Shown here: positions 11,661 through 32,476 of the stretch, piece after piece
How the letters are laid out: each line of letters begins with the position of its first letter
Numbering within the stretch: the stretch's first letter is position 1
Assembly (NCBI GenBank): GCA_027080995.1
Contig: JALWNT010000081.1
Span: 1-41,850, forward strand
DNA length: 41,850 nt
Direction: 5' to 3'
Source of the DNA: Campylobacteraceae bacterium
Lineage (GTDB): Bacteria > Campylobacterota > Campylobacteria > Campylobacterales > Sulfurovaceae
Notes under the pieces: generated by a model
Seen by the model: only the letters and a program-made list of their open reading frames with translations
The model's database searches: none
What the model was told of the DNA's origin: nothing
Program-made: the position numbers and the translations under genes

Positions 11661-12782
11661 ATGTCGAAGAGAGTCGGATCGATTGTATTGCTGCTGGTCG
11701 TGGGGCTTTTGCTCGTGCTGGGGTATCGATATATCCACTATCGGATGGTCAATGCCGTCAGCGACGCCGCATTTATCAAAAGCGATCGTCTCCCTTTTTT
11801 GAGTTTCAAAGTGGGCGGCAAAGTCGTGGAGATGAAGGTCGAAGCAAACCAGCGGGTCAAAAAAGGGGAGCTTCTCGCCCGCATCGATGCGACGGATTTC
11901 CGCCTCGCCAAGCAGAGGATGCTTCATCGGCGGAGGAGCCTCGGCGAAAAGATCGCGGCGGCCCGTCTGCGAAAGAATCGGCTGAAAGAGACGCTCTCGC
12001 TGCAGAGTCGCATTGCCGCGACCGATGTGGAGGGGCTGGCCGACGAACTCAACGCGACGCGCCTGCAGATCGACGCCGCCCGGACCCGGCTGAAAAAGCT
12101 GGAAAAAGACAAGGCACGTTTCGCCCGGATGCTTTCGCAAAACCTCATCGCCGAAGCCGCCTACGAGCAGGTGCAGACCGAAGCCGACAGTCTCACACAG
12201 CAGATCGATGCGATGGTGCAGCGCCTCGAAGCGCTCAAGACCAAGGCGAAAAAAGCGAAACTCGCCCACAAATTGCGGGAGGTCAATCGGCGCGAAATTG
12301 CCGAACTGGACAAAAGCATCGCCGCGATGCTCCAGGAGCGCAAAGCCCTCGATGCCGCGCTGAAAGAGACCGAAAAGAAGATCGCCTATACCCGGCTTAC
12401 CGCCCCCTTCGACGGAGTGATCGCCAAGAAGTTTTTTGATGCGCCCAAGGTTGTAGCCAAAGGCTATCCCGTCTACGCCCTCACCGATCCCAAAAAGCTC
12501 TACTGCGAAGTGCTGCTCTCGGAGAAGAAGATGAAAGGGGTCCTCCCCGGCAACTCCGTCACCGTTGAAGTGGATGCTTTGCCGGACAAAACCTTCCACG
12601 GAAAGGTCCAATCCATCGCCCCCACCTCCGCGTCGACCTTCAGCCTCGTTCCCCGGGACATCGCCAGCGGAGAGTTCACCAAGCTCGATCAGCGCTTCGT
12701 CGTGCGCATTACGCTCGATTCGATCGAAGGATTGCGGGCGGGGATGGGGGCGACGGTCGCCATCGCACGGTCGCGCGATTAG
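11661..12782 (+). CDS. EmrA/HlyD-type membrane fusion protein
   Basis: This is the periplasmic adaptor of an EmrAB-TolC-type drug efflux pump (373 aa). The N-terminal membrane segment is at about residues 6-22. The first lipoyl half has KVGGKVVEMKVEANQRVKKG, and a long coiled-coil hairpin follows to about residue 240. The second lipoyl half (TAPFDGVIAKKFFDAPKVV) and the beta-barrel domain complete it. The start is the ATG at 11661, with GGGAGGGAG eight bases upstream; an in-frame upstream ATG at 11640 is not preceded by a good site. The rest of the pump follows, but between this gene and the MFS gene sits a repeat-flanked four-helix-bundle gene. Confidence 0.9.
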   Translation: MSKRVGSIVLLLVVGLLLVLGYRYIHYRMVNAVSDAAFIKSDRLPFLSFKVGGKVVEMKVEANQRVKKGELLARIDATDFRLAKQRMLHRRRSLGEKIAAARLRKNRLKETLSLQSRIAATDVEGLADELNATRLQIDAARTRLKKLEKDKARFARMLSQNLIAEAAYEQVQTEADSLTQQIDAMVQRLEALKTKAKKAKLAHKLREVNRREIAELDKSIAAMLQERKALDAALKETEKKIAYTRLTAPFDGVIAKKFFDAPKVVAKGYPVYALTDPKKLYCEVLLSEKKMKGVLPGNSVTVEVDALPDKTFHGKVQSIAPTSASTFSLVPRDIASGEFTKLDQRFVVRITLDSIEGLRAGMGATVAIARSRD

Positions 12783-12790
12783 CGACCGGG

Positions 12791-12821
12791 TTATTGGTGT
12801 ATTGGTTATTGGTATATTGGG
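12791..12821. repeat. ATTGG repeat, left arm of cassette A
   Basis: The arm consists of units TTATTGG, TGTATTGG, TTATTGG, TATATTGG and a final G. It begins eight bases after the EmrA-like stop and is matched by an inverted arm at 13193-13224. Related arms occur at 16066, 20816 and 29156. Confidence 0.85.
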
Positions 12822-12831
12822 AGAACTGTTG

Positions 12832-13191
12832 ATGAAGAAATTGGGTGATTTGCAGGTTTATCAAATCTCATTGCAGTTGAGCGATCGTGCCTGGAAGGTT
12901 TATCAGCATATACCCAGGCAATTCCAGATTGATATAGGTTCGCAATTTATCCGGGCCGTCGATTCGATCGGAGCCAACATCGCTGAAGGGTATGGCAGAT
13001 ATCACTATCGTGACAGTATGAAGTTCTATTACAATGCGCGAGGGTCCCTTTGGGAGAGCAAACACTGGTTGCTTCTGCTCTATAAGCGGGGTTTCCTTGA
13101 AGAAGGAGAGTTTAGTGAATTTCTAATTTCTATCGAACTCCTTGGAAAAAAACTCAATAATTTCATCAGTAGGCTCAAAGATGCCAATTAA
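12832..13191 (+). CDS. four-helix-bundle (S23/IVP-type) protein
   Basis: This 119-aa helical protein belongs to the four-helix-bundle family first described as encoded by 23S rRNA intervening sequences (S23/bIVP) and related to the Avd accessory protein of diversity-generating retroelements. Typical features are FQIDIGSQFIRAVDSIGANI at about residues 33-52, the AEGYGR segment at about 53-58, and a YNARGSLWESKHWLLLLYKR helix. The biochemical role of the family is unknown; basic surfaces suggest nucleic-acid binding. It lies between an EmrA-like and an EmrB-like gene that normally adjoin, and is enclosed by inverted ATTGG arms, so it looks inserted. The ATG at 12832 overlaps a possible upstream start of the same frame, which is antisense-like noise over the EmrA end. 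Its stop overlaps the start of the MFS gene. Confidence 0.88.
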   Translation: MKKLGDLQVYQISLQLSDRAWKVYQHIPRQFQIDIGSQFIRAVDSIGANIAEGYGRYHYRDSMKFYYNARGSLWESKHWLLLLYKRGFLEEGEFSEFLISIELLGKKLNNFISRLKDAN

Positions 13192-14749
13192 TCCCAATAA
13201 CCAATACACCAATACACCAATAACAAAAAAACCCTGGGACATCACCCCCAAAGAACGCGCCATCTTTTCCATCATCGTTATGACCGGTGCGTTTATGGCG
13301 ATTTTGGATACGACGGTGGTGGATGTGATCGTGCCCAAATTGACGGGGCCGTTGGCGACGGATATGTACGGGGTGCAGTGGATCATCACCAGCTATATGG
13401 TCGCCGCGGCGATTGCGCTATTGATCACCGAATATTTGATCAAGCGCTTCGGGGCCAAGGCGGTCTTTTTGGGCGGGGTGGCGCTCTTTACCGTCGCATC
13501 GCTCAGTTGCGGGCTCTCCTCGAGCTTGGAGCAGATCGTTATCTTCCGGGTGATCCAGGGGGTGGGGGAGGCGTTGATTATGGTGACGAGTCACATTATG
13601 ATCTTCAGCTATTTTCCTCCGGAAAAACAGGGATTGGCGATGGGGATCTACGGCCTGGGGGTGAGCTTCGCTCCGGCGCTGGGGCCGACGATCGGGGGAT
13701 ACTTGACGGAGTATTACAGTTGGCGGATGGTCTTTTTCATCAACGTACCTGTCGGGGTTCTGTTGGTGTTGGCGGGTTTGATCTATCTGCCCAAGGAGAG
13801 CTTTTTCCAGAAATTGCGTTTCAATTTTGTCAGTTTTCTTCTGCTCTCTTTTGCGACGATCTCGCTACTGGTGATGCTTAGCCGGGGGCAGCAGCTGGGG
13901 TGGTTCCACTCTGTCGAAATCGGCGTGCTTTTTTTCGCGACGCTGATCGGTTTCTCCCTCTACGCCCTGAGCGAGCTCAACGCCAAAGAGAGGCTGATCG
14001 ACTTTTCCCTCTTCAAAAACCCGCTTTTTGCCAACGGAATGATGATCTATTTTTTCATCCTGGGCTTTTCGATGTATCAGTATTTCTATCTGCTGCCGGT
14101 CTACTACGAGCACATCAAGCAGCTCCCGACACTGGATGCGGGGATCGCGGTCTTCGCCTTCGCGGTTTTTATCGGGCTTTTTTCTCCTCTGGCGGGGATG
14201 CTGGCGGACAAGATCGGGGCCAAGCGCACCGTGGCGATCGCCGCGACCTTCTACGTCCTGACCTCCGCGACGCTTCTGCCGCAGCTCAACTACTATACGC
14301 CTTTGCACCAGGCGATGCTGCTGACGATACCCTTCGGGATCGGGATGGGGCTCTTTTTCGCCCCGGTGACGGTGATGGTGCTGCAAAACGCCCCGGGGCA
14401 CAAGGGGGAGCTGGCGATCGTGCTGATGGACTACTTCCGTTTCGTAGGCGGAAGCTTCGGTACGGCGCTGGCGACCAACAATATGGAGTACTACAAAAAC
14501 CTCGGTTTTTTGCGGATGGAGGAGCTCCAGAACACGGAGTACCTGCACTGGTTTTTGGATAGAATGCAGCATCTTTCCGGCCTCTCGATGGAGCAGGTCA
14601 AAGCCTTTTTCGGAGGATACGAGAACTTTATGAGTTTCAACTACGGTTTTTACAATACTTTTATGCATGCGGGCTACTGGGGGATCGTCGGATCGCTCTT
14701 TGTCGCGCTGCTTTTTGTCAATTTCAAACGATCGAGGAGTCGAGGATGA
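13181..14749 (+). CDS. DHA2-family MFS drug transporter (EmrB-like)
   Basis: This is a proton-driven multidrug exporter with 14 predicted membrane helices (522 aa). The family motif C region appears as GVGEALIMVT...GLGVSFAPALGPTIGG, and the first helix has AFMAILDTTVVDVIVP with the conserved Asp. It would form a tripartite pump with the EmrA-like adaptor and TolC. The start is taken as the ATG at 13181, which overlaps the four-helix-bundle stop. The first 17 residues (MPINPNNQYTNTPITKK) are largely a translation of the ATTGG repeat arm at 13193-13224, so the native N terminus probably began at or near KPWDITPKERAIF. No other in-frame ATG precedes that segment. Confidence 0.9.
   Translation: MPINPNNQYTNTPITKKPWDITPKERAIFSIIVMTGAFMAILDTTVVDVIVPKLTGPLATDMYGVQWIITSYMVAAAIALLITEYLIKRFGAKAVFLGGVALFTVASLSCGLSSSLEQIVIFRVIQGVGEALIMVTSHIMIFSYFPPEKQGLAMGIYGLGVSFAPALGPTIGGYLTEYYSWRMVFFINVPVGVLLVLAGLIYLPKESFFQKLRFNFVSFLLLSFATISLLVMLSRGQQLGWFHSVEIGVLFFATLIGFSLYALSELNAKERLIDFSLFKNPLFANGMMIYFFILGFSMYQYFYLLPVYYEHIKQLPTLDAGIAVFAFAVFIGLFSPLAGMLADKIGAKRTVAIAATFYVLTSATLLPQLNYYTPLHQAMLLTIPFGIGMGLFFAPVTVMVLQNAPGHKGELAIVLMDYFRFVGGSFGTALATNNMEYYKNLGFLRMEELQNTEYLHWFLDRMQHLSGLSMEQVKAFFGGYENFMSFNYGFYNTFMHAGYWGIVGSLFVALLFVNFKRSRSRG
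13193..13224. repeat. ATTGG repeat, right arm of cassette A
   Basis: Read on the minus strand, the arm is TTATTGG, TGTATTGG, TGTATTGG, TTATTGG, G, with one extra base at the outer end. It is inverted relative to 12791-12821 and followed by a run of A. It is translated as part of the MFS N terminus. Confidence 0.85.
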
Positions 14750-16065: not shown

Positions 16066-16156
16066 TTATTGGTATATTGGTTATTGGTGTATTGGGCAGA
16101 TGAAAAAGATCAATAACGATTTACCCAATATACCAATAGACTAATACACCAATAAC
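16066..16156. repeat. ATTGG inverted arm pair, near-empty cassette B
   Basis: The left arm at 16066-16096 (TTATTGG, TATATTGG, TTATTGG, TGTATTGG, G) and the right arm at 16124-16156 (inverted TTATTGG, TGTATTAG, TCTATTGG, TATATTGG, G) enclose only 27 bp. The arms have the same modular composition as those around the four-helix-bundle gene. It lies between the convergent TolC and prfA genes. Confidence 0.85.
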
Positions 16157-20815: not shown

Positions 20816-20848
20816 TTATTGGTATATTGGTCTATTGGTGTATTGGGG
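20816..20848. repeat. solo ATTGG repeat encoding the suhB C terminus
   Basis: The units are TTATTGG, TATATTGG, TCTATTGG, TGTATTGG and two G, with no inverted partner nearby. On the minus strand it encodes the last residues of SuhB (QYTNRPIYQ) and its TAA stop codon. Confidence 0.85.
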
Positions 20849-29155: not shown

Positions 29156-29193
29156 TTTGGTATATTGGTGTATTGGTTATTGGTGTATTGGGG
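29156..29193. repeat. ATTGG repeat, left arm of cassette D
   Basis: The units are a partial TTTGG, then TATATTGG, TGTATTGG, TTATTGG, TGTATTGG and two G, beginning just after the coaE stop. The inverted partner is at 29552-29582. Confidence 0.85.
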
Positions 29194-29273
29194 AAAGAGG
29201 TAGGACATAGTTTTCTGCCAAAGTGCTTTATTCCCAAAAAGAGAAGCGACTCTTATCTATCAAAAATCCAGGC

Positions 29274-29551
29274 AATTATTACCGCACCAACTATATACCT
29301 CAAACATTGAGAGAACGAGACGAGGTAAGATGTGCGTAAAGAAATCTGAAGGACTACTTGTGGGTAATTCGATGATTTATTTGCGTGCAGATTGCCTCGT
29401 ATCGTTCTCCCCGAAGGGTGAGGCACTTTCGCCCATAGGCTGCGTTGGATTTTCTTGAATTCGCTTAGGCGAGTCCTGCAAAAATCCGCCTTGCCTATGA
29501 ACGAAATTGCCTCATCAATGTTTGAGGTATATAATTGGTGCGGTAATAACT
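29274..29551. mobile_element. 278-bp MITE-like element with 37-bp inverted ends
   Basis: The left end at 29274-29310 and the right end at 29515-29551 are inverted repeats with 35 of 37 positions matching (core ATTACCGCACCAA, then TATATACCTCAAACATTGA). No gene lies between them. The interior includes a second, nested hairpin at 29420-29513. The right end abuts the right ATTGG arm exactly. The non-autonomous size and structure suggest a MITE or a large hairpin repeat; no transposase is seen. Confidence 0.7.
29420..29513. repeat. nested long hairpin inside the MITE-like element
   Basis: GAGGCACTTTCGCCCATAGGC pairs with the sequence at 29493-29513 at 18 of 21 positions. An inner GGATTTT/AAAATCC stem and a perfect TCGC-TTAG-GCGA tip lie between them. 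The segment could fold as an extended RNA. Confidence 0.65.
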
Positions 29552-29582
29552 CCAATATACCAATAACCAATACACCAATGAC
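29552..29582. repeat. ATTGG repeat, right arm of cassette D
   Basis: Read on the minus strand, the units are TCATTGG, TGTATTGG, TTATTGG and TATATTGG. As at 13224 and 16156, it is followed by an A-run. The dapF ribosome-binding site begins a few bases later. Confidence 0.85.
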
Positions 29583-32102: not shown

Positions 32103-32178
32103 GGTCCCATAGCTCAGTTGGTAGAGCACCACCTTGACATGGTGGTGGTCAGAGGTTCAAGTCCTCTTGGGGCCACCA
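32103..32178 (+). tRNA. tRNA-Val (anticodon GAC)
   Basis: A complete cloverleaf of 76 nt with encoded CCA. The acceptor stem is GGTCCCA with TGGGGCC. The anticodon stem CCACC/GGTGG encloses the loop TTGACAT, giving anticodon GAC. The T arm has GGTTCAAGTCC. Confidence 0.95.
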
Positions 32179-32476
32179 TAATCATTCTGCGAAACTTTTC
32201 GAATGTTTTTATAAATCCTCCTGCAGCCCAATCACATTGCAAAAATGTCTGTTTCCCCTTTGCTATAATTTCTATTGCTTCAACCCAATTTTATGTGAGT
32301 AGAAAATGCTTCAAACGCGTCGATATCCGGTGTCGGCACGGGACGAGGAGAGAAGAGTCGGCGTAGCCGGAAGGGTGCGTTGAACATTCGATCGCCCTTG
32401 TCATCGATGATCGATGCGGATGAGGTGTTGGCTAATGCAGATACAATAGGTTCAAACAAACGTCAAAGGAGTGGAT
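32179..32476 (+). promoter_or_regulatory. leader region before the glycine-zipper lipoprotein
   Basis: No convincing gene lies here. A TATAAT box at 32264-32269 could start a transcript of about 200 nt ahead of the lipoprotein gene. Part of it can fold: AACGC near 32314 with GCGTT near 32380, and CCGG near 32327 with CCGG near 32368. It may be a structured leader or a small RNA; no known riboswitch class was recognised. Confidence 0.35.

Follow-up and report, generated by a model that had tools for sequence, protein, structure and literature searches.

A probable intervening-sequence element of the S23p/IVP type between emrA-like and emrB-like genes in a Campylobacteraceae genome

Intervening sequences, heptamer repeats and the emrA-emrB locus

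The origin and function of rRNA intervening sequences (IVSs) have been open for more than 25 years (PMC4990558). In Coxiella, the IVS has a 28-bp terminal stem, is excised by RNase III, and carries tandem GACAGAT heptamers before the S23p ORF (PMC4990558). Heptamer repeats are also known outside of rRNA genes: the cyanobacterial STRR, the GGGNATC repeats of Xanthomonas and Nostoc, and the TAACTGA repeats of Beggiatoaceae are intergenic and have a period of 7. For GGGNATC, four units are preferred and many pairs are convergent (PMC4692102; PMC4679880). The published reports name no gene that is associated with these repeats, and the texts of PMC4692102 and PMC4679880 mention neither S23 nor a four-helix bundle.

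We analyzed a 41,850-nt stretch of DNA (the window), which is contig C81 of a 1.97-Mb genome. An earlier note, made from the sequence alone, had described inverted ATTGG arms around an S23/IVP-type gene, with this block lying between EmrA-like and EmrB-like genes. Both parts of this description were confirmed at the positions in Table 1: the enclosed ORF (12832-13191) belongs to PF05635 (23S_rRNA_IVP, E=1e-26), the arms are inverted repeats (33 nt at 82% complementarity, with a 24-nt core at 96%), and by domain search, the neighbors are an HlyD/EmrA-like gene upstream and an EmrB-like MFS transporter gene downstream. The motif TATTGGTNTATTGG (with at most one mismatch) has 16 matches in the window and none in dinucleotide shuffles, so the ATTGG arrays of the window are not due to chance.

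Table 1. Coordinates of the features discussed, as positions in the window
Feature	Positions	Strand	Remark
emrA/HlyD-like membrane-fusion gene, upstream host	11661..12782	+	
Perfect 7-bp hairpin CGGTCGC-GCGATTA-GCGACCG	12768..12788		Over emrA stop codon, just outside arm
Upstream arm, four ATTGG units (7/8-mers)	12790..12822	+	7 nt past emrA stop codon; C-free on + strand
IVP / S23p-type four-helix-bundle gene, 119 aa	12832..13191	+	Pfam PF05635, AlphaFold, Foldseek
Downstream arm, four ATTGG units, inverted array	13192..13224	-	
emrB-like MFS gene, downstream host	13184..14749	+	First codons come from right arm
Gene-less ATTGG arm pair, solo derivative	16067..16154		Loop ~30 nt
Single solo ATTGG array	20817..20846	+	
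Gene-less ATTGG arm pair	29163..29580		Contains unrelated multicopy MITE 29276-29549

The IVP gene is the sole gene between the arms, with no known transposase in cis, and a domain search of the window's proteins found no match of IVP to a nuclease or transposase family. Terminal inverted repeats bound a mobile block, as in classical IS or MITE elements. The emrB start that is used (13184) overlaps the 3' end of the IVP gene. The N-terminus of EmrB is therefore encoded by the right arm, and in this way the arms shape the ends of host proteins. The EmrB residues that come from the right arm (13184-13224) are MPINPNNQYTNTPIT... in the window and MTNDQLANDSKK in relatives (L287, L289).

AlphaFold predicts four helices for IVP (pLDDT 97). 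By Foldseek, this model matches 2GSC (XCC0516), 2RLD, the accessory protein Avd of diversity-generating retroelements (DGRs; 4dwl, TM-score ~0.8), and 8ube/8ub7, which contain Avd in a ribonucleoprotein. XCC0516 is described as a homopentameric ring (Lin 2006, as cited in PMC4990558). Across 34 diverse members of the family, four residues (Q, R, E and E) are invariant. Within allele classes, dN/dS is 0.04-0.14, which indicates strong purifying selection and implies that the protein is used. In contrast, the Coxiella protein was reported to be probably not expressed.

Mobilization in trans by a reverse transcriptase or an IS200-type transposase of the same genome is not supported: we detected neither RVT_1 nor Y1_Tnp in this genome. 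IVP shares its fold with Avd; unlike a DGR, however, the element resides in a genome with no detected reverse transcriptase. Similarly, REP/RAYT and IS200/IS605-type elements share with the cassette the hairpins beside short repeats and the many gene-less copies, but the arms of the cassette are tandem heptamers, not a single palindrome, and this genome has no detected Y1 transposase.

Inverted heptamer arrays around IVP genes

This genome contains six PF05635 genes, and all six are enclosed by inverted arrays, each with a unit of its own (CGTGCTA, GTCGTTT, TATTGGTG, AATGGTG, GATTTTG and GATGTTG). To quantify this arrangement, we aligned each upstream flank locally to the reverse complement of its downstream counterpart and took the result as an inverted-flank score. 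We used a threshold of 14, which was chosen by looking at controls, so the resulting percentages are approximate. In this genome and its relatives, 81 of 100 IVP genes scored at least 14, whereas none of 157 random positions from these loci did. A control on 84 other genes gave one high score, which was itself for an IVP gene, and hence no genuine match.

The same arrangement is found in other phyla. We scanned GTDB with one sub-family profile, which was built from four closer IVP sequences because a ten-sequence alignment was too diverse, and took the best 80 of 572 confirmed matches, which also makes the percentages approximate. Among these loci, 62 of 78 reached the threshold, as compared to 2 of 156 controls. 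They are mostly from other phyla, from Bacteroidota to Chloroflexota and Patescibacteria, with one Heimdallarchaeota bin. Plasmids of cyanobacteria, Gemmatimonadota, Riemerella and Azospirillum carry copies with a like arrangement. (On two cyanobacterial plasmids, L194 and L196, IVP cassettes split the CRISPR gene pairs cas6|cas4 and cas10|cmr3.) At the thresholds used, clear arms are missing from about 10-20% of IVP genes.

The repeat unit is usually a heptamer. In this genome and its relatives, of the lags from 4 to 12 only lag 7 shows raised self-similarity in the upstream flank; in the GTDB loci, lag 7 and its multiple 14 are raised, and lag 8 weakly. Lag 8 is raised for ATTGG-type arrays. 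For the arrays nearest to IVP genes, the median number of units is 4.1, and C makes up 4% of the strand that leads into the gene. These arrays are almost always inverted (41, versus 1 that is direct).

The position of the cassette is also constrained. Its neighbors run in the same direction, and it lies in sense with them (in relatives, 74 (+,+) versus 4 (-,-); across phyla, 53 versus 2). Counted from the upstream stop codon, the arm starts between -26 and +31 nt in 77 of 80 cassettes. Perfect hairpins of at least 8 bp lie just outside the arms in 27% of cases upstream and 23% downstream. The corresponding figures are 0.4% for random places and 0.9% for the sites that follow other stop codons. 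The hairpin at 12768-12788 is weak on its own, but stems of at least 8 bp at that position are strongly enriched over the family. At priA|ispG and rho|murI (L296-L301, L323-L329), the final coding bases form perfect hairpins (up to 18 bp) with inverted copies of themselves just after the stop codon, and these copies track host-specific substitutions. They could arise by fold-back synthesis or by selection for the hairpin.

The earlier note had suggested testing whether four-helix-bundle genes are enriched between inverted ATTGG arms. We did find strong enrichment between inverted heptamer arrays in all phyla sampled, but it is not specific to ATTGG. Most ATTGG arrays in this genome are single or short hairpins that enclose no gene, so ATTGG arms alone do not mark an IVP gene. 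As just one of the six IVP genes has ATTGG arms, we rejected ATTGG as the IVP-specific arm.

In Azospirillum lipoferum, plasmid AZO_p2 has an IVP gene within a 23S rRNA gene (L199; RF02541, 280-3324), enclosed by inverted arms of four heptamers (CAGAGGA, CGGATGA, CAGAGGA, CGGAGGA). Together with the anatomy of the Coxiella IVS, this suggests that rRNA IVSs and operon cassettes are one kind of element. The 23S rRNA IVSs of the Coxiella, Leptospira and Brucella types share with the cassettes the PF05635 family, a length of ~430 nt, the sense orientation, terminal inverted repeats (a ~28-bp stem) with the ORF in the loop, and tandem heptamers beside the ORF (PMC4990558). They differ in that the window's element lies at the stop codon of a protein-coding gene within an operon, at emrA|emrB rather than inside a 23S rRNA gene, and in that the arm sequence of the cassettes varies from allele to allele. 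In the literature that we could search, mainly open-access papers, we found no statement that equates the rRNA IVSs with operon cassettes.

Block replacement of the cassette and pairing of its arms

The earlier note suggested comparing orthologous emrA-emrB junctions, and the outcome was mixed. In 9 of 14 readable genomes the junction contains an IVP cassette, and in the other 5 it is empty, with the two genes adjoining or overlapping. Comparing filled and empty junctions by eye, we saw no evident target-site duplication. At priA|ispG in the relative G011, both arms and the inner hairpins are kept, but the IVP gene is missing.

The relationships of the hosts and of the cassettes disagree. For rho|murI, the murI DNA of G001 is shared to 95% with G002 and to 83% with G005, whereas its IVP protein is shared to 60% and 96%, respectively. 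The arms travel with the IVP allele, and sliding identity at emr, murI and ispG switches no more than ~40 nt away from the arms. Judged from these comparisons, the cassette is replaced as a block at three junctions, which shows lateral exchange of the whole unit, arms included. The claim of the earlier note that this is a mobile unit at gene boundaries was partly borne out, by the empty emr junctions, the block replacement, and the gene-less arms in G011; no transposing enzyme was found.

IVP proteins from one site have a median identity of 62%, and those from different sites 31%, so lineages mostly keep to their own junction, which is what homing or replacement of alleles would produce. IVP copies inside one genome are diverged from each other. 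Lateral allele replacement at fixed junctions fits these data better than free hopping does. Cassettes could be replaced by ordinary homologous recombination with very short tracts. We rejected carriage by phages, as the phage records we searched (50,697, by tblastn with the window's IVP protein) contained no match. At emrA|emrB in G063 and G008 (L288, L289), which are from different families, ~38 nt over the upstream array are identical, with divergence on both sides. From this identity, arrays may be exchanged on their own as well.

Although diverged IVP alleles at one junction have different heptamers, the heptamer matches between the two arms of one allele. At the same site, an allele's own arms have a pairing score of 21.8, as compared to 10.9 if arms are swapped between alleles, and the own arms scored higher in 182 of 185 comparisons. 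(These comparisons share genomes and sites and so are not independent of each other, but almost all of them point the same way.) Swaps inside one allele class made no difference (23.2 versus 22.9). This is covariation: the complementarity of the arms is kept. In the predicted RNA fold of the window's element, the arms are paired and the gene is in the loop (z -4.9). From covariation and RNA folding, it is strongly supported that the co-transcribed arms would pair into an RNA stem.

Explanations for the cassette and the solo arrays

We propose that the element is probably an IVS element of the S23p/IVP type that resides between operon genes instead of inside 23S rRNA. It consists of about four C-poor 7/8-mers starting from the upstream stop codon, the IVP gene in sense, and an inverted copy of the array. 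In RNA, the co-transcribed arms would form a stem of ~30 bp with the IVP message looped out, and by analogy with the rRNA IVSs, RNase III may make a double-strand cut in this stem. In DNA, by comparison of genomes, the whole cassette is exchanged laterally as one block between alleles of a given gene junction, is absent from some relatives, and appears to leave behind gene-less arm pairs and solo arrays. A ring of IVP, whose solved homologue is a homopentamer, may bind the heptamer arms, either in its own RNA or in its DNA, which might help the element to persist or to home.

Solo arrays are numerous in this genome. Allowing one mismatch, TATTGGTNTATTGG has 71 forward and 57 reverse matches genome-wide (~128 in all), as compared to 0 and 1 for the reversed pattern. 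In 186 kb of sampled sequence, which are the surroundings of ATTGG arrays and IVP genes, we found 83 arrays of period 7 and 37 of period 8, and 0-1 of each other period from 5 to 10. With dispersed tandem 7-mers of several sequence families, this genome would count as having STRRs. All five of the genome's own period-7 arm heptamers recur in it as solo arrays, as do 9 of 21 arm heptamers from related genomes (1.7 expected; maximum of 6 in 500 shuffles). The solo arrays look like gene-less derivatives of the cassette.

More speculatively, nearly all IVP/S23p genes might belong to a single class of minimal selfish elements, ancient and pan-bacterial, namely heptamer-armed RNA hairpins that home to stop codons and whose arms are recognized by IVP. 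The IVSs of 23S rRNA would be the special case that landed in rRNA, and STRR-type repeats would be gene-less relics. We offer this generalization tentatively and consider it less likely than not. If true, it would join rRNA intervening sequences, dispersed heptamer repeats for which no maker is known, and the Avd of DGRs; it predicts that heptamer arrays are the ligand for rings of the IVP/Avd fold; and it provides a simple signature that can be searched for in any genome.

Alternatively, the cassette could be a DNA mobile element whose IVP protein reads the heptamer arms as terminal repeats and performs or directs its own insertion at gene ends, with solo arrays as MITE-like, non-autonomous copies. 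Movement as a block, gene-less arm pairs, the ~128 ATTGG matches, the recurrence of arm heptamers as solo arrays, and a genome with no detected RVT_1 or Y1_Tnp protein that could act in trans would all be expected. However, IVP has no nuclease or transposase match, no target-site duplication was evident by eye, IVP lineages mostly stay at their own junction, and the covariation and the sense bias point to a role in RNA, so we consider this explanation rather unlikely.

Less likely still is that IVP is a domesticated regulator that binds the arms in its own mRNA and tunes expression of the host operon, with alleles exchanged by normal recombination. This would account for the purifying selection on IVP and for its sense position inside operons, and the related Avd does work in a ribonucleoprotein. 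But the operons that host the cassettes at different sites are unrelated (murI, ispG, cas10/cmr3, nrd, emr), and some relatives lack the cassette and yet have an intact operon. That the arms are ordinary intergenic STRR-type repeats, which lie near IVP genes by chance in repeat-rich genomes, would fit the abundance of solo arrays, but it is very improbable given the 41:1 excess of inverted arrays, the allele-specific pairing, the recurrence of the pattern in distant phyla and plasmids, and the controls (0 of 157 positions, and effectively 0 for other genes).

We also set aside two ideas about the repeats themselves. Stop codons in all three frames were dropped as a reason for the period of 7, as the ATTGG arrays have no stop on the + strand. 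A G-quadruplex role, as proposed for the GGGNATC repeats, was rejected for the window arms, which have no repeated runs of three G.

Returning to the window, the solo array at 20816-20846 overlaps the 3' end of a suhB-like gene and adds the residues ...PQYTNRPIYQ. The MITE at 29276-29549 is ~273 bp long with 35-bp inverted ends, and has several long copies in the genome at 81-98% identity. It is found between coaE and dapF, inside the loop of a gene-less pair of ATTGG arms. Finally, positions 32140-32276 match the Rfam antisense RNA HPnc0260 just over threshold and overlap a tRNA on the opposite strand.
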